DNA of 17,844 nt from Candidatus Bathyarchaeota archaeon (GTDB lineage: Archaea > Thermoproteota > Bathyarchaeia > Bathyarchaeales > Bathyarchaeaceae). Position numbers and translations under genes: made by a program. Under the pieces are notes generated by a model. That model had not been told where the DNA came from and searched no databases. It saw only the letters and a program-made list of their open reading frames with translations. Positions within the stretch are counted from its first letter, which is position 1, and each line of letters starts with the position of its first letter. Below are positions 2,898 to 17,065 of this stretch, piece after piece. Location: positions 1-17,844 of the forward strand of contig QMYO01000006.1 of assembly GCA_003662715.1 (NCBI GenBank), in the 5' to 3' direction.

Positions 2898-3721
2898 TGA
2901 GCGTTTTTAACTCTAAATTTGTGAAGGTTCTGGAAAGGCTGTTTGGAGTTCCAGCGCCTATCATCTTTGTTACTGGAAGAATGGGAAGGGGAAAAACAGA
3001 CTTTTGCCTGCTTATTGGAGAGTTGGCTCTGCAATATGGATGGGTTAAGCATGTAGCCACCAACATTAAAGTATTTGATGAGAGGTTTCTGCATATTACG
3101 AGCTGGGCTGAACTTGAGAATTGGCTTAAACTTGACAAGCGAAAGAAACTTTACATTTTTGATGAGGCAAGCAGCAACATCAGCCGCAGAACACCCATGG
3201 CACAGCTAAACAGAAAAATCATCGACTTAGCATTCAAGCTTAGAAAGTATCGTGCCCACCTATTGTTGGCTGCAGTTAGCAGAGGACTTGTAGACAGCAC
3301 TTTCGAGGCTATACCAGACTTGGTGCTTGGAGAATTCCAGAAGATTTCACGTGAAACAGCCATTCTTCAAAGCGACTTATTCGATGATTTAATCGTCATC
3401 CGGAATATTCCGCCGACAACCGTTAAATTCGACACCTATGACATTGCACCCTTCAGCCTAACGCCGCCAGACGAGGGCCTACAATTCCTATGCTGTAAAG
3501 TAGCAAAGAGATACTATGAACTAAAGAACTACAGCAAAGTTGCACAGGAATTCGGTATCCATCGACAACAAGTCAAAGACTTGGTTTTAAAGCATTTGCA
3601 ACATACATTTGGACAAGTCAAAATGTCAGAGGAGGAACATATTAAGATACAAAATTCCGACAAAGAAAAGGAAAATGATGTTGATTTTACGTTAGATTGT
3701 AACGTAAAATGGAGAAAATGA
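2897..3721 (+). CDS. Zot/FtsK-like P-loop ATPase with C-terminal helix-turn-helix
   Basis: The 274-residue product has a Walker A motif at residues 27-34 (GRMGRGKT), a Walker B at 85-90 (LYIFDE), and a following segment with RKYRAHLLLAAVSRG, matching the layout of Zot-type (zonular occludens toxin family, filamentous phage morphogenesis) and related FtsK/HerA ATPases. Such ATPases power DNA packaging or extrusion through a membrane. Beyond about residue 180 it differs from Zot. Residues 202-236 read as a helix-turn-helix (YYELKNYSKVAQEFGIHRQQ and following) and the tail is acidic and lysine-rich. No membrane helix is evident, whereas many inovirus Zot proteins have one. The start ATG overlaps the upstream stop, with GGAGGAGAG before it. 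The neighbouring secreted and membrane genes support a virion-assembly role. It might alternatively be a DNA translocase used in conjugation. Confidence 0.75.
   Translation: MSVFNSKFVKVLERLFGVPAPIIFVTGRMGRGKTDFCLLIGELALQYGWVKHVATNIKVFDERFLHITSWAELENWLKLDKRKKLYIFDEASSNISRRTPMAQLNRKIIDLAFKLRKYRAHLLLAAVSRGLVDSTFEAIPDLVLGEFQKISRETAILQSDLFDDLIVIRNIPPTTVKFDTYDIAPFSLTPPDEGLQFLCCKVAKRYYELKNYSKVAQEFGIHRQQVKDLVLKHLQHTFGQVKMSEEEHIKIQNSDKEKENDVDFTLDCNVKWRK
3684..3710. promoter_or_regulatory. Perfect inverted repeat overlapping the first possible recombinase start
   Basis: The arms ATTTTACGTTA (3684-3694) and TAACGTAAAAT (3700-3710) are perfect reverse complements separated by five bases. The element lies in the last codons of the ATPase gene and reaches into the ATG at 3709. 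It is a candidate operator for the recombinase gene or a recombinase-binding (att-type) site. As RNA it would form a hairpin hiding the first start codon. Confidence 0.5.
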
Positions 3722-4499: not shown

Positions 4500-4985
4500 A
4501 TGAAAAATTCAAAAAATATTATTGAAAAAATAGATTTTACTCCCAAAAATGAGAAAGGTGTTTTTTATTTATTTTCAAGAATTCATGAAAAAATAGGGTT
4601 TGAAAAAATTATTTCTTTTCAGCAATGGCCAGATATTATCGCGAAAAGAAATGGAAAGACTGTGAGAATTGAATTGGAATTTAAACTAAGTGATTTTCTT
4701 CGGCATCATTATCGAATAACAAAACCGTTAGTTATGGGTCATTGGAAAAAGGTCCAGAATAAATGGATTCTCGTAGTCGGAACTAACATAGTTGATGAAA
4801 TTTCAGATCCTGAAAATAATATTTGGCTGAATAGAGATGACAATGCATTATATCTAAAAACCTTAGGCGATAAAAAGGTTGATGTTGTTATTTGTTGGGT
4901 CAAGGATATAGAACTTTCCAAACTCATTAACGATAATGTACAGGTTGTAGAGTTATCTTGTTTAATAAAATATAAGGGGGTGTAG
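4500..4985 (+). CDS. PD-(D/E)XK nuclease-like protein
   Basis: The 161-residue product contains Pro44-Asp45 followed by E60-F-K62 in the segment QWPDIIAK...RIELEFKLSDF. This is the spacing and hydrophobic setting of the PD-(D/E)XK active site shared by restriction endonucleases and Holliday-junction resolvases. Later strands (WILVVG, VDVVICWVKDI) fit the same alpha/beta fold. The start ATG at 4500 is three bases past the recombinase stop and has GGAGGAATAATT upstream. The gene is clearly richer in A and T (many AAA, ATT, AAT codons) than the genes on either side, which suggests a separate origin. It may process DNA ends during integration or replication, or act in defence against rival elements. 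No methyltransferase partner is seen, which argues against a classical restriction system. Confidence 0.65.
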   Translation: MKNSKNIIEKIDFTPKNEKGVFYLFSRIHEKIGFEKIISFQQWPDIIAKRNGKTVRIELEFKLSDFLRHHYRITKPLVMGHWKKVQNKWILVVGTNIVDEISDPENNIWLNRDDNALYLKTLGDKKVDVVICWVKDIELSKLINDNVQVVELSCLIKYKGV

Positions 4986-8344: not shown

Positions 8345-8516
8345 TTTCTTTTCTCTCCTTTCTTAACTTTTCATAAATCATGCGCCTCAACAACTCGCTG
8401 ACAGTTCTTCCCTTACGCTTAGCCAACTCTTCAAACTGCTCTTTCACTCGCTTGCTGACTCTAACTCTTATAACGCAGTCTTTACGCTCATGAAAAACAC
8501 CAGCTTTACTCACCAT
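8322..8516 (-). CDS. Ribbon-helix-helix DNA-binding protein
   Basis: The 64-residue product has the RHH (CopG/Arc-type) pattern. A short strand (CVIRVRVS) is followed by helix A (KRVKEQFEELAKRKG), the turn RTVSELL, and helix B (RRMIYEKLRKERKE). Proteins of this type bind DNA as dimers with the strand in the major groove and act as repressors or copy-number and partition regulators. The ATG at 8516 is chosen because AAGGAGG lies upstream; a TTG at 8570 would add 18 residues that look like translated leader. It overlaps the zinc-finger gene downstream by 23 bases. The 63 bases between it and the radical SAM gene have no clear gene. Confidence 0.8.
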   Translation of the reverse strand: MVSKAGVFHERKDCVIRVRVSKRVKEQFEELAKRKGRTVSELLRRMIYEKLRKERKENVLRSEQ

Positions 8517-8579
8517 TCTGCTTTTCAGCCTCCTTGATTTCTTTCCATATGTCTGTGAGCAAGCAGCCAAGCCAAAATC

Positions 8580-9284
8580 TCAGCAATCATCTTCGCCATA
8601 AACCTCCTTTTTGAGCTCTTTTTTGATATGGAACGGTTTTCCAAGCCTTTCAAGAAACGAGATTACTGCTGGAAGATGAGATTTATAGTAGTCTTTAGGT
8701 ATTTTGAAGCCGAATTTCCCAGCATAGTTAAGTCTGCCTATCACGTAAAAGTCTACGTAGTTTTGGGTTTCCTTGATTATTTCAATTGGAGCTGTAACGT
8801 ATGGGATCCAAGGTTCAATGCTAACCCAGGTTTTGACTCCTTTTTCATGGGCTTGTCTAAGCCAGTATACTCTTTCATCGTTTCCTGGAGCCTTCGGCTC
8901 AGCTCCTATATGCCATAAAGCCGTTATTGTAGAGCCAAGCCAGAAACCTCCAACCCTAAACAATTCAAGATCTCTTTCAACCGCAAGCTTGGGATTCTTA
9001 GTCAGAACATAAACTTCATGCCTGGACCCCAACAATATGGAAAGAACAAGCTGAGTAAGCTTCTCATTTAATTCACGAGGCTGATAAGGATCGCTTGTAA
9101 AGCTAACAACAACCCTCAACGACTTTTTAGCATTTAGAAGTTTACGGGCCTCTTCCAGAGGCCTCGGATTTTGCGTTCTATACCTAAACAAAGGCGTATT
9201 AGCCCAACAATAACGGCAATTGTAGGGGCAGGTTGGATAAACGGTTATTTGCCAATCAGCATACTCAACATTAGTCCTTGCCAT
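8580..9284 (-). CDS. Radical SAM protein of the spore photoproduct lyase (SPL) type
   Basis: The 234-residue product has the radical SAM iron-sulfur motif C19-x3-C23-x2-C26 in TVYPTCPYNCRYCW, followed by a TIM-barrel-like series (VVVSFTSDPYQPRE, VYVLTKNPKLAVERD, WVSIEPWIPYV). The SDPYQP and TKN segments match the SPL/SplB-like family, whose founding member repairs the spore photoproduct thymine dimer in DNA. The protein is much shorter than bacterial SplB (around 340 residues), so it may be a minimal form or act on another substrate, such as a base in DNA or RNA. The ATG has GGAGG eleven bases upstream. It sits directly after the HerA-like ATPase in the operon. Family confident, substrate unknown. 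Confidence 0.8.
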   Translation of the reverse strand: MARTNVEYADWQITVYPTCPYNCRYCWANTPLFRYRTQNPRPLEEARKLLNAKKSLRVVVSFTSDPYQPRELNEKLTQLVLSILLGSRHEVYVLTKNPKLAVERDLELFRVGGFWLGSTITALWHIGAEPKAPGNDERVYWLRQAHEKGVKTWVSIEPWIPYVTAPIEIIKETQNYVDFYVIGRLNYAGKFGFKIPKDYYKSHLPAVISFLERLGKPFHIKKELKKEVYGEDDC

Positions 9285-9290
9285 TAGAAC

Positions 9291-10961
9291 TCAGCCTCCT
9301 AAAACGAGTTGTTTTAGTTGTTCGTGAATTTGGTCTATGGCTTCATCTGGAGCCAAGGGCTTGATTTTACGGATGTTTTCGGCTACCCACTGTCTGAAGC
9401 GGTTGCGGAAGGCTTTACGATTACCTTTCTTTGTTTCCCAGAGCAGTCGTTTTTCTGCAAGAATATTGCAGTATTGCAGGTTTGTTGCTGATGTCACGCC
9501 TGTTTCGAGTTCTTCTGGCCAGAACGTGTATTCTGGATCCATGCGTATGGCCTGCTTGAAAACCAGGCTTAGGGCTCCTCTTCCAGACTTCAAGTTATAA
9601 AGCATGCGTCTGGCGTCTTGAATCCAACTCTGCACGTTGGGATCGTTAAGCACTTCCTGGACAAGTTCCTTCTTTAATTGTTCTTCTCGCTTGTAGCGTT
9701 CCAGCTCCTCTTTTAGGCTGTCACGTTCCTTGATGACTTGCTGAATGTCCTTTGGAACAAGCTCTAAATCGAAGATTTCGCTTATCTCTATCAGCACATC
9801 CTTGAGGCTTTGAATTGCTTCTCTGGCATTCTCAAATTTAGATTCAATCTCCCAAATTTCCTTTCTTGCCTCTTCTGTTTCTGCAAGTTTGCGCCGCAAC
9901 TCTTCATTTTCGGCTTGTAACTCTGCATTTCGACTGTTTAACTCAAAAATTTGCTGTTCAAGTTGTCTAATTCTATCCTCATAGGTTTTCTTTAGCTCTT
10001 CCATTTGAGTTAGAAGCGTCTTTCTTTCACGCTCAAACCTTTCAGCCAGAATCTGCGAAGTTTCAGCTTTACCTTCTGCAAGTTTCGGCGTAGCCTTCAT
10101 TAATTCTGAAAATTCCTTGATTGCCTTAGCTAAGTCTGGCGTTTCTACTGGCTTGGCTAAGGGAGTTTCGGCGCCATGACTGCAAAGTCTCTCCTTGACA
10201 TGAATTATGATTGGCTCCTCTAAGCCTATGACTACGGCGTCTCCAGGCTTGAATAGGCGAACCTTCTCAATCAAATCATTAGATAAGCCGTATTCTCTAA
10301 GCCGGTCGAGGTCTATTGGATCCACAGTTTTATGCACTATTTTCAATTCGCATTGGCTAAGCGTCATCTTGCTTATTTCAGCTGGACGCCTCGCAACTGC
10401 AATAAAGCCAATACCATAATGCCTTCCTGTAGCTCCAATCTCATAAACCCAATATTCCACTTTCTGCTGAACACGAGTAACTTCCTTAAGCTTGATAACT
10501 CCCTTCTCTGGCGTAATACGGTGAGCCTCATCCATGATCAGAACATAGGGCTTCTTCAGCTTCTCCTCAATATGATAAAAGCCTTCAAGGAAAGCAGCCA
10601 GGAAATTGTAGCGTTCAAGCATGGTTCCAAACTTCAAATCCAAAACCGCACTAATTCCAAGCTGAACAATCTTCTCGGCTAAAAGCTTGGCTTGTTCAGC
10701 ACTAACATTCTTGATGTCTGCATAGTCTGGATTGCCTAAAGCAACAATCAAAACTGGAAAACGTTCACGAAGCGTCTTGTATTCTCCCATTAAATCCACA
10801 ATTAAAAACGGAAACTTATGCAAGGCTAACTCTTCAGCGATAACGCCTGTAGTCCAGCTTTTGCCTCCGCCACGCATGCCAAGAACTGCTAAGCCTCGAT
10901 CAACCAGGTGCCTATGAACATCCAAACAGAAATTCTCAGACAAACAAACTTTAACCTTCAT
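9291..10961 (-). CDS. HerA/VirB4-like ATPase with long coiled-coil C-terminus
   Basis: The 556-residue product begins with a HerA-type motor. Walker A is at residues 28-35 (GMRGGGKS), the hallmark FLIVDLMGEY follows, Walker B is at 140-147 (VLIMDEAH), and the downstream GATGRHYGIGFIAVARRPAE block supplies the arginine and sensor residues seen in HerA-family DNA pumps. From about residue 300 to 480 there is a long, highly charged coiled coil (repeated E, K, R, L heptads), then a globular C-terminal domain rich in Trp, Tyr and Arg. The start at 10961 is chosen because GGAGGG lies seven bases upstream. It probably moves or anchors the element's DNA, in replication, partition or transfer. No NurA nuclease partner is seen, unlike host HerA operons. 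It overlaps the small gene upstream by 11 bases. Confidence 0.85.
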   Translation of the reverse strand: MKVKVCLSENFCLDVHRHLVDRGLAVLGMRGGGKSWTTGVIAEELALHKFPFLIVDLMGEYKTLRERFPVLIVALGNPDYADIKNVSAEQAKLLAEKIVQLGISAVLDLKFGTMLERYNFLAAFLEGFYHIEEKLKKPYVLIMDEAHRITPEKGVIKLKEVTRVQQKVEYWVYEIGATGRHYGIGFIAVARRPAEISKMTLSQCELKIVHKTVDPIDLDRLREYGLSNDLIEKVRLFKPGDAVVIGLEEPIIIHVKERLCSHGAETPLAKPVETPDLAKAIKEFSELMKATPKLAEGKAETSQILAERFERERKTLLTQMEELKKTYEDRIRQLEQQIFELNSRNAELQAENEELRRKLAETEEARKEIWEIESKFENAREAIQSLKDVLIEISEIFDLELVPKDIQQVIKERDSLKEELERYKREEQLKKELVQEVLNDPNVQSWIQDARRMLYNLKSGRGALSLVFKQAIRMDPEYTFWPEELETGVTSATNLQYCNILAEKRLLWETKKGNRKAFRNRFRQWVAENIRKIKPLAPDEAIDQIHEQLKQLVLGG

Positions 10962-11094
10962 TTTTAACCCTCCATTTTGTTCCATTTTCGGATTCAATAT
11001 CCAGAATTTTGACTTGCTTCCATCTTGTAAGATACCAGACAAGATGATTAGCGAGTTCTCGACCATCAACTTCAAACAAAATTTTAAACTTCAT
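10951..11094 (-). CDS. Small protein upstream of the HerA-like ATPase
   Basis: This 47-residue gene runs from the ATG at 11094 (AAAGGAGTTG upstream) to a TAA at 10951, overlapping the ATPase start by 11 bases. The product reads MKFKILFEVDGRELANHLVW and continues with a basic and hydrophobic second half (TRWKQVKILDIESENG, WRVKNEG). The pattern is beta-alpha-beta, and its overlap with the ATPase gene suggests a coupled partner. No family recognised. Confidence 0.6.
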   Translation of the reverse strand: MKFKILFEVDGRELANHLVWYLTRWKQVKILDIESENGTKWRVKNEG

Positions 11095-11332
11095 TTTTCC
11101 GCAACAACTCCTTTTGGTTATACTGTGGGTGATTTGCAGTCGACTGCAAATTAATTAAATTATTACAATTCTTGGTTTGTTTCTGATTATTTTCTTCGAA
11201 ACGGTCTCTTTTGTTTGCGGAGCTATTTTTATGTCTTTTCAGACAACTTGGGCAAACCATTAAGGTTGAATCAATTCTTATTGGGACAAAAGGCTGCCCA
11301 CATCTACTGCAAAATCTAACTTTCCTTCCCAT
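11084..11332 (-). CDS. Zinc-ribbon protein with low-complexity tail
   Basis: The 82-residue product has an N-terminal zinc ribbon at residues 8-30 (FCSRCG ... VCPSCLK) and then a polar, Asn/Gln/Lys-rich tail with no predicted fold. The ATG at 11332 follows GGAGTTGAT and overlaps the stop of the previous gene by 17 bases. The tail carries a perfect 20-bp palindrome at 11132-11151. The low-complexity tail may be under little protein-level constraint, leaving room for DNA-level signals. Likely a nucleic-acid-binding or protein-contact module; exact role unknown. Confidence 0.65.
   Translation of the reverse strand: MGRKVRFCSRCGQPFVPIRIDSTLMVCPSCLKRHKNSSANKRDRFEENNQKQTKNCNNLINLQSTANHPQYNQKELLRKNEV
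11132..11151. repeat. Perfect 20-bp palindrome centred on GTCGAC
   Basis: The half-site ATTTGCAGTC is followed directly by its reverse complement, without a spacer. It lies in the low-complexity tail of a zinc-ribbon gene, about 300 bp from two further long palindromes. Confidence 0.85.
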
Positions 11333-11684
11333 TTTTTATCAACTCCTTCAAGAATCTTTCAAAACATGATGTTCCAGCTTCGCAATCATCATAGTATGGG
11401 CAATCAAAGCATACTGCTTGTCTTGCCTTCTCAATTCTTTGCGATCGCAAAGAATTTAACAAATGCCCCCGATCGGGGGCATTTTGTTGAAGTTTCCTTA
11501 ACTCAGAAAGAACATCCTCAAGCTTAACCCATTTGCTTAGCATCCATTTTAGCATCCGTCTGTTATATATAGAAGCATCTGATGCTACCTTTTTTACTTC
11601 TGAATCTCGCATATCCACAATTTGAGCAAGTGTTTTGGCTTTTTGTTTGAGCCTCTCCATCAACTCACGCCAAACATCACTCAT
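11316..11684 (-). CDS. Helical protein with C-terminal four-cysteine cluster, host of twin palindromes
   Basis: The product is 122 residues from the ATG at 11684, which begins MSDVWRELME, overlaps the upstream gene by eight bases and has GAGGGG upstream. The first ~65 residues are helical (MERLKQKAKTLAQIV, MLKWMLSKWVKLEDVLSELR). A linker follows at about residues 66-88, then a cysteine cluster C92-x2-C95-x5-C101-x5-C107 (CFDCPYYDDC...C), probably binding an Fe-S cluster or zinc. The linker is where the two 24-bp palindromes lie, so its sequence (QQNAPDRGHLLNSLRSQR) may be dictated by the DNA. No family recognised; the helical part might contact DNA or the ATPase encoded downstream. Confidence 0.65.
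   Translation of the reverse strand: MSDVWRELMERLKQKAKTLAQIVDMRDSEVKKVASDASIYNRRMLKWMLSKWVKLEDVLSELRKLQQNAPDRGHLLNSLRSQRIEKARQAVCFDCPYYDDCEAGTSCFERFLKELIKNGKES
11433..11456. repeat. Perfect 24-bp palindrome A, centre GCGATCGC
   Basis: The half-site AATTCTTTGCGA is followed without spacer by its perfect reverse complement. Its centre is 28 bp from that of palindrome B; the two are separated by only four bases. As single strand it would form a 12-bp stem. Confidence 0.9.
11461..11484. repeat. Perfect 24-bp palindrome B, centre CGATCG
   Basis: The half-site AAATGCCCCCGA is followed by its perfect reverse complement. It shares the CGATCG core with palindrome A but the arms differ. Its run of C and G is unlike the AT-rich surroundings. 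Confidence 0.9.
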
Positions 11685-11826
11685 TTTCAAACCCCTCACA
11701 TACCTGTTGATATGTTCCACATTTAGGGCATCGGTATAATCCATCAATAGTTGTATTACGAACTTCACGCATTTCTGAGCCGCATTTAGGACATTTAACA
11801 ATCTTTTTATGCTTAACATCACTCAT
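11677..11826 (-). CDS. Small zinc-ribbon protein
   Basis: The 49-residue product reads MSDVKHKKIVKCPKCGSEMR and has a second CPKCG about 16 residues after the first, a standard zinc ribbon (C12, C15, C33, C36). The ATG at 11826 is preferred over an upstream in-frame start because it follows GGAGG at good spacing and overlaps the upstream stop by four bases. Proteins of this size often act as transcription or replication accessories in archaeal elements. Confidence 0.7.
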   Translation of the reverse strand: MSDVKHKKIVKCPKCGSEMREVRNTTIDGLYRCPKCGTYQQVCEGFENE

Positions 11827-11844
11827 GGCTTGTTTTCCTCCTTT
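11821..11844. repeat. Translation-start repeat, copy 1
   Basis: This 24-bp stretch matches 11964-11987 with one mismatch. On the minus strand it carries the ribosome binding site and start codon of one small gene (GGAGGAARACAAGCCATGAG, where R is A here and G in the other copy). Confidence 0.85.
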
Positions 11845-11969
11845 CTTTTGTGGAAGAAGAAGCATCCATGTTTGTGCGGGTTTCTAATTTTACGGAAATG
11901 GCGAAAACACCATTTGCCTTTAAGGAAGACACATTCGCTACAGTGTCCCGGATACTTAAACTTACTCAT
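11823..11969 (-). CDS. Small four-cysteine basic protein
   Basis: The 48-residue product has C10-x2-C13-x7-C21 and C36, with many aromatic, His, Lys and Arg residues (HCSECVFLKGKWCFRHFRK). It resembles the cysteine arrangement of the neighbour at 12154-12411 (CSSCAFL...C...C). A metal-binding, nucleic-acid-contacting role is likely. The start at 11969 is chosen from GGAGG upstream and an eight-base overlap with the preceding gene; a longer frame to 12092 lies inside that gene. Confidence 0.65.
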   Translation of the reverse strand: MSKFKYPGHCSECVFLKGKWCFRHFRKIRNPHKHGCFFFHKRKEENKP

Positions 11970-12153
11970 GGCTTGTCTTCCTCCTTTTATGTTTGTCATG
12001 CGATTTTGTCCGCAACTTCCGACCGCATTCCGGACAGACCGGCAAGCCTTTTCCGTTGACTTTATGCTCGCCTTTTCGAATCCACCTTCCACACCAAGGA
12101 CAATAATAATACCAGCGATAACGACTATTCTCAGCCAAAACCAGCTTAGCCAT
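11962..12153 (-). CDS. Small zinc-ribbon protein
   Basis: The 63-residue product has C18-x2-C21 (CPWCGRW) and C40-x2-C43 (CPECGRK), a clear zinc ribbon, with a very basic tail (KLRTKSHDKHKRRKTSHE). The ATG follows AGGAGGAAAAAGTGA. The stop of the previous gene lies directly upstream. The basic tail suggests nucleic-acid binding. Confidence 0.7.
   Translation of the reverse strand: MAKLVLAENSRYRWYYYCPWCGRWIRKGEHKVNGKGLPVCPECGRKLRTKSHDKHKRRKTSHE
11964..11987. repeat. Translation-start repeat, copy 2
   Basis: This 24-bp copy matches 11821-11844 with one mismatch, at an offset of 143 bp. It holds the ribosome binding site and start codon of the next small gene upstream in the operon. Confidence 0.85.
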
Positions 12154-12411
12154 TCACTTTTTCCTCCTTTTACGCTTGTTTTGTTTACGTTTGTAGCCGT
12201 TACATGGCCAGGGCTGATCGAGAAGCTCCTTCGGAATTAGCCAGCCGAACTTTCTGCATTCAGCATATTGGCTGTTCTTTGGGTTAATCAAAAAAGCGCA
12301 TGAACTGCATTTTTTGCGAGTTTTCAGCATGCTTGGATGCAGTATTTCTGTAACTTCAAGCTTCATGTCGGGAAAACGATGATGAGCAACAACCAAATGA
12401 CGCAAAGGCAA
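12154..12411 (-). CDS. Small four-cysteine protein with basic tail
   Basis: The product is 85 residues from a TTG at 12411 with GGAGG about nine bases upstream. An internal ATG at 12366 would give 70 residues. Cysteines at 35, 38, 52 and 70 (CSSCAF...ECRKFG...PCNGYK) form a C-x2-C-x13-C-x17-C pattern, probably an Fe-S or zinc site. The extreme C-terminus is a run of Lys/Arg/Asn (RKQNKRKRRKK). The same cysteine style recurs in the next small genes, suggesting a family that has diversified within this operon. No named family recognised. Confidence 0.6.
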   Translation of the reverse strand: MPLRHLVVAHHRFPDMKLEVTEILHPSMLKTRKKCSSCAFLINPKNSQYAECRKFGWLIPKELLDQPWPCNGYKRKQNKRKRRKK

Positions 12412-14888: not shown

Positions 14889-15548
14889 TCAAACCTCAAA
14901 ACCACCCCCTTTAATTGGACAATTTTCAAAAGTGCAAAAACCGGGAGCGTTATAATTGAAAAAGCAGTTTGGCTCGCCATTCTGGTCATATATGCGATGC
15001 TTGCATGTCTGGTATGGTCTTAGCTTGGCTAATGGAGGGCCTTGCAGGAAATAGCTTCTGTTTCCGGTTCTGTGATGTATTCCAAGCGGCAACCTTACGA
15101 AGTTGCCGTATTGCCCCGGCTTTAATTCCCGCTGTTTTGGAAAGATTTCGGCTGTAAGCTCGCTTTTAATTTTGTCCACGAGCATGCTGGCTTGCCAGAG
15201 CGGAGTAGGCTCCAATAGTATCCATACATGCATTCCTCTTCCACCAGTATCTTCAAGCAAAACACAGTTTTCATGGAATAGTTGCCTGGCGAGGCTGTAA
15301 GCCAGCATTGAACGTTTAAAGTCGATGTCTATGCAAATCCATTTCACTATGCCTTTCTCATTGAAGGGATAAACGCCCAAACAATATTTTCCTTCAAGAT
15401 GGTCTGTCACTTGTCTTATAGTCAATGACTCCTTGACTGTCCGCCAGCCCTTCTCAGACTCGACTCCGTAAACGTCTGTTCTTGCAACGAAAAGCTGCAT
15501 AAGCTGCGCCGCAACTTCCCTATTGCCTAATCGCCTCTGACACAACAT
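14889..15548 (-). CDS. Archaeo-eukaryotic primase of the TOTE-type group
   Basis: The 219-residue product has the catalytic D74-x-D76 (WICIDIDFK), the S/T-G-G-R-G-M-H motif at 101-107 (TGGRGMHVWI), and the third block GNFVRLPLGIHHRTGNRSYF, which together define the TOTE-type branch of archaeo-eukaryotic primases. The C-terminus holds C182, C195, C205 and C210 (CKH...CFF...CTFENC), expected to bind an Fe-S cluster or zinc. The upstream LEGKYCLGVYPF segment is also typical. It would prime replication of the element or act in repair. No TOTE helicase or nuclease is fused to it, so it is not a complete TOTE conflict system. It overlaps the ParB-like gene by 29 bases. Confidence 0.85.
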   Translation of the reverse strand: MLCQRRLGNREVAAQLMQLFVARTDVYGVESEKGWRTVKESLTIRQVTDHLEGKYCLGVYPFNEKGIVKWICIDIDFKRSMLAYSLARQLFHENCVLLEDTGGRGMHVWILLEPTPLWQASMLVDKIKSELTAEIFPKQRELKPGQYGNFVRLPLGIHHRTGNRSYFLQGPPLAKLRPYQTCKHRIYDQNGEPNCFFNYNAPGFCTFENCPIKGGGFEV

Positions 15549-16248
15549 TCCTTATCCACTCCTCTCCAAGCTCTTTTTCAATTCGGCTCCAAACAGCCTC
15601 CAGAACCTGCTTCAGCAATTTTGCGCCCTGCTCGGCTGAACTGAACTGATAGAACTCATAAACCCAATCGATGAGGCTGAGAGGATAATAACGCTTAAGC
15701 TTGTCAATAATCCTAACAAGCGGAGGCTCCTCGACTAAGGATTTAGGCTGACTTGAAGGAAGTGTCGGCGCAACAGAACCAGAAGCAGGAACAGAAGACG
15801 GAACAGTAATAGCTTGCTCAGCCTTTCGCTCTTGGGTTTCTTCCGATTTAAGATTCAGTGCACGACGTGCACTGGCAAGTTGTTCAGGCTCTGGCCTTTT
15901 ATACTTTTCAGGAAGATACTTGTAAACCCATCTTTCACTCATTCCAAGAACTTCTGCAATCTGCTTAGGCGACCAACCCGTAAGCTCAGCAATTTGCCCA
16001 AGCAATTCACGCTTCTCTTCAGCCGGAACCCGCCTACGACAAACATTAACAATCAACCTTGCAATAACCAAGTCAACCTTGCTACGAATATGCTCAAGCT
16101 TAATAGAAGGCCAATTAGAATCAACTTCAAGCCTATGAAAACCATCAATAACATTCCCATAAGCATCCTTAATAACCGGAACCAACGCACCAATAGTCCT
16201 ATAAGACTGAGCCAAATCATACTTCTCTTCATGCTCTTCCTCAGACAT
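15520..16248 (-). CDS. ParB-like protein with HTH
   Basis: The 242-residue product has a shortened ParB/Sulfiredoxin-type N-domain (PVIKDAYGNVIDGFHRLEV) followed by a helix-turn-helix (LTGWSPKQIAEVLGMSERWV). A low-complexity Ser/Pro/Thr/Ala linker follows (about residues 125-170) and then a C-terminal helical domain that may dimerise. ParB proteins bind parS sites and CTP and partition plasmids; some relatives are nucleases. The leading ParB box is partly missing, so the CTP-switch is uncertain. A ParA partner is absent in this window. A 19-bp inverted repeat lies in the linker part of its own gene (15856-15874). It overlaps both neighbours and is probably translated together with the primase. 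Confidence 0.8.
   Translation of the reverse strand: MSEEEHEEKYDLAQSYRTIGALVPVIKDAYGNVIDGFHRLEVDSNWPSIKLEHIRSKVDLVIARLIVNVCRRRVPAEEKRELLGQIAELTGWSPKQIAEVLGMSERWVYKYLPEKYKRPEPEQLASARRALNLKSEETQERKAEQAITVPSSVPASGSVAPTLPSSQPKSLVEEPPLVRIIDKLKRYYPLSLIDWVYEFYQFSSAEQGAKLLKQVLEAVWSRIEKELGEEWIRNVVSEAIRQ
15856..15874. repeat. 19-bp inverted repeat in the ParB-like gene
   Basis: CAGTGCACG and CGTGCACTG are perfect reverse complements around a single A. The element lies at the edge of the linker coding region of the ParB-like gene. It is a candidate ParB binding site or an RNA hairpin. Confidence 0.8.
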
Positions 16249-16600: not shown

Positions 16601-16791
16601 TCTATATCTACCTCATCTTGAAGTTCAACGCCGGAAATCTCCAAATTAAGAGAAGGATAGTTGTCTTTTTTCCATTCTTTTGCCTTTTTCACAGCTTCAT
16701 CAAAATTTTCCGCTAAAACCGTCAATTCCTCAAACACACTGTCAATGCTTGCCGCGTCACTTTCCCTAAAGTAAACCTTCCATATCCTCAA
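16597..16791 (-). CDS. Small alpha/beta protein
   Basis: The 64-residue product starts with a TTG at 16791; the GGAGG lies within the end of the upstream RHH gene. The sequence is beta-alpha-beta (MRIWKVYFRESD, LTVLAENFDEAVKKAKEWKK, NLEISGVELQDEV). The shape resembles small DUF-type domains with a central helix, and the partial gene at 17432 has a similar outline. No named family is assigned. Confidence 0.6.
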   Translation of the reverse strand: MRIWKVYFRESDAASIDSVFEELTVLAENFDEAVKKAKEWKKDNYPSLNLEISGVELQDEVDIE

Positions 16792-16948: not shown

Positions 16949-16985
16949 GTCTTCACCTCGATTAACCGTTATATTAACGGTTAAA

Positions 16986-16995
16986 GTATATAAAA
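16986..16995 (-). promoter_or_regulatory. TATA box of the long minus operon
   Basis: On the minus strand this reads TTTTATATAC, a good archaeal TATA element. Transcription would begin near 16964, inside the first operator, about 16 bases before the RHH start codon. Confidence 0.6.
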
Positions 16996-17028
16996 TTAAC
17001 GGTTAGCATAACCGTTAGAACCGTTACC

Positions 17029-17037
17029 TTAATATTT
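17029..17037 (+). promoter_or_regulatory. Candidate TATA box of the rightward RHH gene
   Basis: TTAATATTT lies about 27 bases before a likely start near 17060. The gene starts at 17066, so the message would be nearly leaderless, in keeping with the absence of a ribosome binding site. Confidence 0.4.
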
Positions 17038-17065
17038 CTTAGTAACCGTTACTATAACGATAAAA

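Follow-up and report, generated by a model that had tools for sequence, protein, structure and literature searches.

HsdS of type I restriction systems carries two exchangeable segments between conserved ones, which are reassorted by recombination, and hairpin-forming DNA is known to provoke insertions and deletions. The protein family described here likewise has two exchangeable segments between conserved segments, but its members are 68–167 aa long, and the member in the window, by which we mean the whole 17,844-nucleotide stretch of the Candidatus Bathyarchaeota contig QMYO01000006.1 that was analysed, has no Pfam, NCBIfam or PHROG family match. None of the 10 window proteins scanned against Pfam belongs to a restriction family, and we therefore set aside the family's identification as an HsdS-type DNA-specificity subunit. 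Insertions of palindromic DNA that keep the reading frame and are translated are described for the Rickettsia palindromic elements (RPEs); these are about 150 bp long, fall into ten families and number 44, in unrelated genes, in a single genome (PMC10969869). By comparison, the palindromes of the window are also palindromic DNA in frame inside a gene and comparable in effect, but the palindromic stretch spans 52 bp at one locus, and we found no copies of it in unrelated genes in the window, IMG/VR (exact 18-mers), phages, plasmids or 256 genomes. Integron attC sites offer a further comparison, since here too hairpin-forming DNA lies at a cassette border and a GTTAAAT heptamer, noticed by eye, follows the second palindrome. 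Identity with attC was rejected by eye, however, because the inverse core does not fit and the palindromes are perfect and lie mid-gene; the window's integrase gives only weak matches to general integrase profiles.

The locus and the genes around it are made up as follows.

11433–11456: palindrome 1, AATTCTTTGCGATCGCAAAGAATT, perfect, spacerless, 24 bp
11461–11484: palindrome 2, AAATGCCCCCGATCGGGGGCATTT, perfect, spacerless, 24 bp
11132–11151: palindrome 3, ATTTGCAGTCGACTGCAAAT, perfect, spacerless, 20 bp, in the gene after the palindrome gene; absent from the sequence-only reading
11316–11684, minus strand: palindrome gene, 122 aa from its ATG, made of head, middle module M4, core and C module C7
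11084–11332, minus strand: zinc-ribbon-like gene (judged by its cysteines), 82 aa, with no NCBIfam match
10951–11094, minus strand: 47-codon open frame starting inside the constant tail joint, with KNEG at its own end
9291–10961, minus strand: HerA/FtsK-type ATPase, 556 aa from a downstream start (PF01935)
14889–15548, minus strand: archaeo-eukaryotic primase (PF22548)
15520–16248, minus strand: ParB-like N-terminal region with helix-turn-helix (PHROG 2159, E 1.5e-6)

The sequence-only reading had described two perfect 24-bp palindromes inside a small gene, four bases apart and with different arms around a common CGATCG centre, and this description is exact: the four bases are TAAC, the centres lie 28 bp apart and the arms are alike at 6 of 12 positions. 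On the minus strand palindrome 1 codes for NSLRSQRI (residues 77–84), with its dyad on a codon border, whereas palindrome 2 falls within the codons for QNAPDRGHL (residues 67–75) in a different register. Palindrome 3 is centred on a different sequence. The centres of palindromes 1 and 2 are the only CGATCG sites of the window, though two sites are no enrichment, as many being present in 92 of 200 shuffles; and since GATC is under-represented (30 observed vs 49.6 expected), the two GATC centres run against the trend. As a separate observation, CTAG is absent from the window (39.5 expected) and GTAC, GGCC and GATC are scarcer than expected, a pattern like that of genomes exposed to restriction.

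We chose the ATG start of the palindrome gene by the head of its relatives; a GTG start would give a longer open frame, of 168 aa. Its C7 module holds a CxxCxxxxxCxxxxxC cluster. The palindromes do lie in coding sequence, adjoining the conserved core, so that the linker in which they had been placed is plausible, though unproven, as the AlphaFold2 model of the product is poor (pLDDT 59.5). The zinc-ribbon-like gene, in which palindrome 3 lies, starts within the final part of the palindrome gene, and its product terminates in ELLRKNEV. The operon that had been proposed with a ParB-like protein, a primase and a HerA-type ATPase agrees with the shared strand and gene run, from which a single transcription unit may be supposed. 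In the ParB-like protein Pfam recognizes helix-turn-helix domains only, and NCBIfam gives only an IS21 match below its cut-off. A tRNA search found none in the window, and the stretch is probably an archaeal mobile element. At 16955–17060, repeated TAACGGTTA / TAACCGTTA units lie between two small genes that look divergent by eye, and are likely an operator for a small regulator.

Protein searches, in which 7,993 candidates were scored, returned 16 and then 129 relatives of the palindrome gene product at E <= 0.01, and the family analysis covers the 120 of these 129 that were listed, about five in six of which have a longest contig below 5 kb. Among the members are proteins from an Aenigmatarchaeota bin (P0012) and from Bathyarchaeota bins (P0096, P0150); judged by these and by the HerA relatives, the host of the window is probably archaeal. 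The proteins have in common a constant head, MSDVWRELEERLKQKAK, and a core, WVRLEDV, to which many add the tail ELLRKNEG, with two variable stretches in between. After splitting the proteins at these constants with simple regular expressions and clustering the parts by shared words, we counted 39 modules in the middle slot and 37 in the C-terminal slot, paired in 108 different ways among the 120 proteins, numbers that are rough because both the splitting and the sample, which itself follows shared words, are approximate; across clustering settings they range over 39–49 middle and 37–45 C-terminal modules. At the 39/37-module setting, every one of the 26 middle modules with several members, and 23 of 24 such C modules, has more than one partner, and the 108 pairings come close to the mean of 111.6 under random re-pairing. 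Four-way rectangles, numbering 46, fall to 28 and 20 at two stricter clustering settings. As read from these sequences, the family is combinatorial, with a constant head, core and often tail and with a swappable middle and C-part that are nearly freely paired, so that two segments reassort independently between constant ones. It is a larger and more interesting find than the palindromes; a literature search that was not aimed at the family sequence met no published description of it. Some contigs may carry two copies, since P0074 and P0139, and likewise P0129 and P0163, come from contigs of equal length.

At the DNA level the constants form joints, listed here with the segment that we propose as an insertion.

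11631–11687, minus strand: constant head DNA, the start codon plus MSDVWRELMERLKQKAK, 89% over 57 bp to the family member of L045
11511–11531, minus strand: core WVKLEDV of the palindrome gene, between the two exchangeable slots
11433–11484, minus strand: proposed in-frame palindromic insertion of 52 bp at the start of the C-terminal cassette, facing a 14-residue gap in P0088
11087–11112, minus strand: constant tail joint GGAGTTGTTGCGGAAAAATG, sharing 27 columns at 96% with L045 9262–9288

L045 is a 30.6-kb IMG/VR contig whose frames look terminase-, portal- and capsid-like when judged by the reading frames themselves rather than by profile search; it also shares with the window 50 bp at 82% in another small gene (16670–16719). 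The tail joint combines a Shine-Dalgarno-like GGAG with the ATG of the following frame, and this frame runs for 47 codons in the window and for 263 aa in L045. In both, the tail closes the gene after the family gene and not the family gene itself, and the stretch from core to tail can thus apparently carry the end of one protein together with a whole next gene. Palindrome 3 lies about 20 bp from the tail joint, placing palindromes near both ends of this core-to-tail stretch. A distant member, L041/L043, shares 46 bp at 83% over the head. Homologues lacking any palindrome, against which the sequence-only reading had staked its proposal, do occur: L045 has no palindrome of at least 10 bp at 8400–9400, and L041 has none of at least 12 bp. 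Both members carry other C-parts, however, so the comparison is not clean, although it does indicate that palindromes are not needed for a working member. Elsewhere in the window, four stretches of ribosome site plus start (11809–11844, 11952–11987, 11978–11996 and 12161–12179) precede successive small genes and are similar to one another at 86–89%; on their sequences, they look like repeated joints for gene exchange.

The C module that the palindromes open, C7, is found in 4 of the 120 proteins (the window's, P0002, P0003 and P0004), each time with a different middle module. The peptide NAPDRGHLLNSxRSxRI recurs in P0002, P0003 and P0004, with NAPDRGHL identical in all four carriers, and as the contigs involved differ in length, the recurrence speaks against a misassembly. 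Aligning P0002 with P0088, which has a related C module, leaves one gap of 14 residues over NAPDRGHLLNSIRS, and given this clean gap the 52-bp palindromic stretch looks like an in-frame insertion, on the strength of one insertion-free homologue at the protein level. Just before the palindromes the window lacks seven residues of P0002, YVLVRKN, while P0003 and P0004 have 12 extra, length differences that would fit a patch of insertions and deletions such as hairpin-forming DNA provokes. As far as the peptides go, palindrome 2 could be perfectly symmetric in P0002, P0003 and P0004. For palindrome 1 the peptide of P0002, with I-D for L-Q, still permits full symmetry, whereas those of P0003 and P0004 allow no more than 11 of 12 pairs; not every carrier has therefore kept it perfect. 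Since 52 of 400 residue pairs would allow symmetry at the I-D site as background, the replacement in P0002 lends slight support, at the level of peptide sequence, to the idea that symmetry may have been kept.

Looking for other copies in related genomes and elements, as had been suggested, yielded none that was credible. Within 3 mismatches, the window holds no further copy of the inner 14 and 18 palindrome bases, and exact 18-mers of both palindromes are absent from IMG/VR. Distant BLAST searches with the C-part at E <= 10 gave 110 matches in phage records (best E 0.2) and 14 in plasmid records (best E 0.5), which we took as chance. Across 256 genomes of the class of a Bathyarchaeota bin (G001) there were short matches only, 162 of the genomes having one at E <= 1. 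The best, with E 0.003, spans 19 bp that fall almost wholly outside the palindromes; a match in L049 (E 0.013) takes in the greater part of palindrome 1 at 86%, and in the ten loci examined from this search no palindrome exceeds 16 bp. Degenerate DNA for NAPDRGHL matched 4 IMG/VR contigs, near-identical to one another at the site and judged chance on inspection, with no palindrome of at least 16 bp. When two candidates per genome were scored, the whole-window DNA gave short matches in 10 of 256 genomes. With no second copy found, a mobile repeat is not supported.

Relatives of the proteins were similarly sparse. When close relatives were sought in IMG/VR with the HerA and the small protein, and in GTDB contigs with HerA, nothing was returned; phage records had no match for the small protein and 2 weak ones for HerA. 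The family profile A1 and the HerA profile A2 found no relative in IMG/VR. In GTDB contigs A2 found 25 loci, 6 of them clear relatives (L001–L006, 41–48% identity) with no palindrome of at least 18 bp, while 4 of the other 19 do have palindromes of that length (L011, L017, L019, L023). One of these, the Methanoperedens contig L017, has three copies of a perfect 20-bp palindrome, CCCCGTATTTAAATACGGGG, at 3655–3674, 4585–4604 and 11711–11730. Searches of archaeal genome sets with A1 matched 0 of 256, 0 of 6, 0 of 4, 1 of 156 (judged chance from its frame) and 2 of 398, of which one is real (L041/L043) and the other, in a 1,277-aa frame, was taken as chance. A further profile, A4, built from 116 of the 120 family proteins with the window's own row standing for P0001, matched 0 of 256 and 0 of 324 archaeal genomes and led to one useful locus in IMG/VR, L045.

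That the palindromes are a chance product of coding sequence is barely credible, as the sequence-only reading had already argued on simpler grounds. Only 0.0015 spacerless palindromes of at least 24 bp are expected at the base composition of the window. With codons drawn from window usage, the probability of the palindrome given the protein is 2.5e-4 for palindrome 1, 7.8e-6 for palindrome 2 and 2.2e-4 for the 20 bp of palindrome 3, the product of the first two being a joint value of about 2e-9. When the codons of 38 predicted genes, hand-picked from the list of open reading frames, were resampled with the proteins held fixed, none of 300 sets contained a 24-bp palindrome, and the longest, of 20 bp, appeared in 2 of 300. 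Chance is helped to the extent that octamers which a 24-bp palindrome with its dyad on a codon border could encode are no great rarity, at 20 of 26,983 in 50 HerA-family proteins; an apparent excess of them in the small-protein family (29 of 12,405) was dropped because it mostly counts the same modules repeatedly. A test of codon constraint also came out in favour of the palindromes, which are partly built from infrequent codons (TCG for 5.6% of serines, CGG and CGA for 6.1% and 10.1% of arginines, CCC for 9.6% of prolines and GGG for 10.4% of glycines), the remaining codons being common. It is unlikely that what was built are paired RNA hairpins acting on the operon through ribosome pausing, coupling or cleavage, even though no other fold is as strong as that of the pair, either in a scan of both strands in 8,892 windows of 64 nt, where the plus strand gives the best value, or on the mRNA strand alone. 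The 71 nt of mRNA over the pair fold at -32.3 kcal/mol (z -6.5, equalled by 0 of 200 shuffles) into two 10-bp stems with identical GAUC loops, about 100 nt upstream of the start codon, at 11332, of the following gene that overlaps the end of the palindrome gene. Yet the L045 homologue has no palindromes although an overlapping gene follows there too, and no Rfam family reaches threshold, the single match below it being Phe_leader (31.6 bits vs 55). Self-complementary loops are, moreover, unnecessary for RNA: scanning the whole window for stems of at least 9 bp with loops of 0–15, we found all three at the palindrome locus to be spacerless, whereas five elsewhere have loops of 1–5 bases. Three self-complementary four-base loops would arise by chance about once in 4,096 (1/16 each), a figure that is post hoc, the locus having been picked as spacerless; with this reservation, the argument speaks more for duplex DNA, or for a process that generates perfect palindromes, than for a role in RNA.

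Duplex DNA could mean a partition, operator or origin site for a dimeric protein such as the ParB-like or a ribbon-helix-helix protein, a reading suggested by the perfect dyads, the common centre and the presence of ParB-like and Arc/RHH-like genes on the same element, but we consider it improbable. Like parS sites the palindromes accompany a ParB-like gene, but they lack a repeated common motif, and the arms alike at 6 of 12 positions, the missing further copies and the other centre of palindrome 3 all count against a parS, an origin or one dimeric-protein site, as had been proposed. The supposed near-integer helical spacing was mistaken, as 28 bp amounts to 2.67 turns and puts the centres out of phase. 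A match to the chromosomal parS consensus sits elsewhere (GATTTCACGTGAAACA at 3343–3358, 14 of 16 positions, in a coding region of this ParB-bearing element), and 11 of 200 shuffles contain a match within 3 mismatches. A somewhat unlikely alternative is that the palindromes are functionless debris, left by a single event of snap-back or template-switch synthesis where cassettes join and passively inherited since. This would explain relatives that differ in length just upstream, P0003 and P0004 in which palindrome 1 cannot be perfect, and L045 and L041 homologues that manage without; it sits less well with the identity of NAPDRGHL in all four carriers, even if the module is well conserved elsewhere too, and with the I-D for L-Q replacement in P0002 that still permits a perfect palindrome. 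We tentatively prefer to see in the palindrome pair a short in-frame palindromic insertion at the 5′ border of an exchangeable C-terminal cassette. Its position directly after the constant core and the slot exchange evident in the pairings support this preference, and against it the absence in P0088 is one case that could be a deletion.

Under the preferred insertion reading, the segment would have entered as a palindrome or become perfect by template switching, and would since have been carried along with its cassette. The palindromes may then act as an indel- and recombination-prone joint, like other hairpin-forming DNA, for which a dedicated binding protein would be unnecessary. It is a doubtful extension that the constant joints (start-codon head, WVRLEDV core and SD-ATG tail) are used for cassette exchange in a small-protein gene of archaeal viruses and plasmids, promoted by the hairpin palindromes at the C border; such a system would generate diversity without a tie to a known integrase or reverse transcriptase.

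Perfect 24-bp palindromes are unusual in coding DNA, and if they mark recombination joints they would offer a way to test how archaeal mobile elements assemble new genes from exchangeable pieces. The nearly free pairing of modules points to selection for variants, as in host-interaction or anti-defence proteins, and the family thereby raises the question of what the binding partners of its modules may be.
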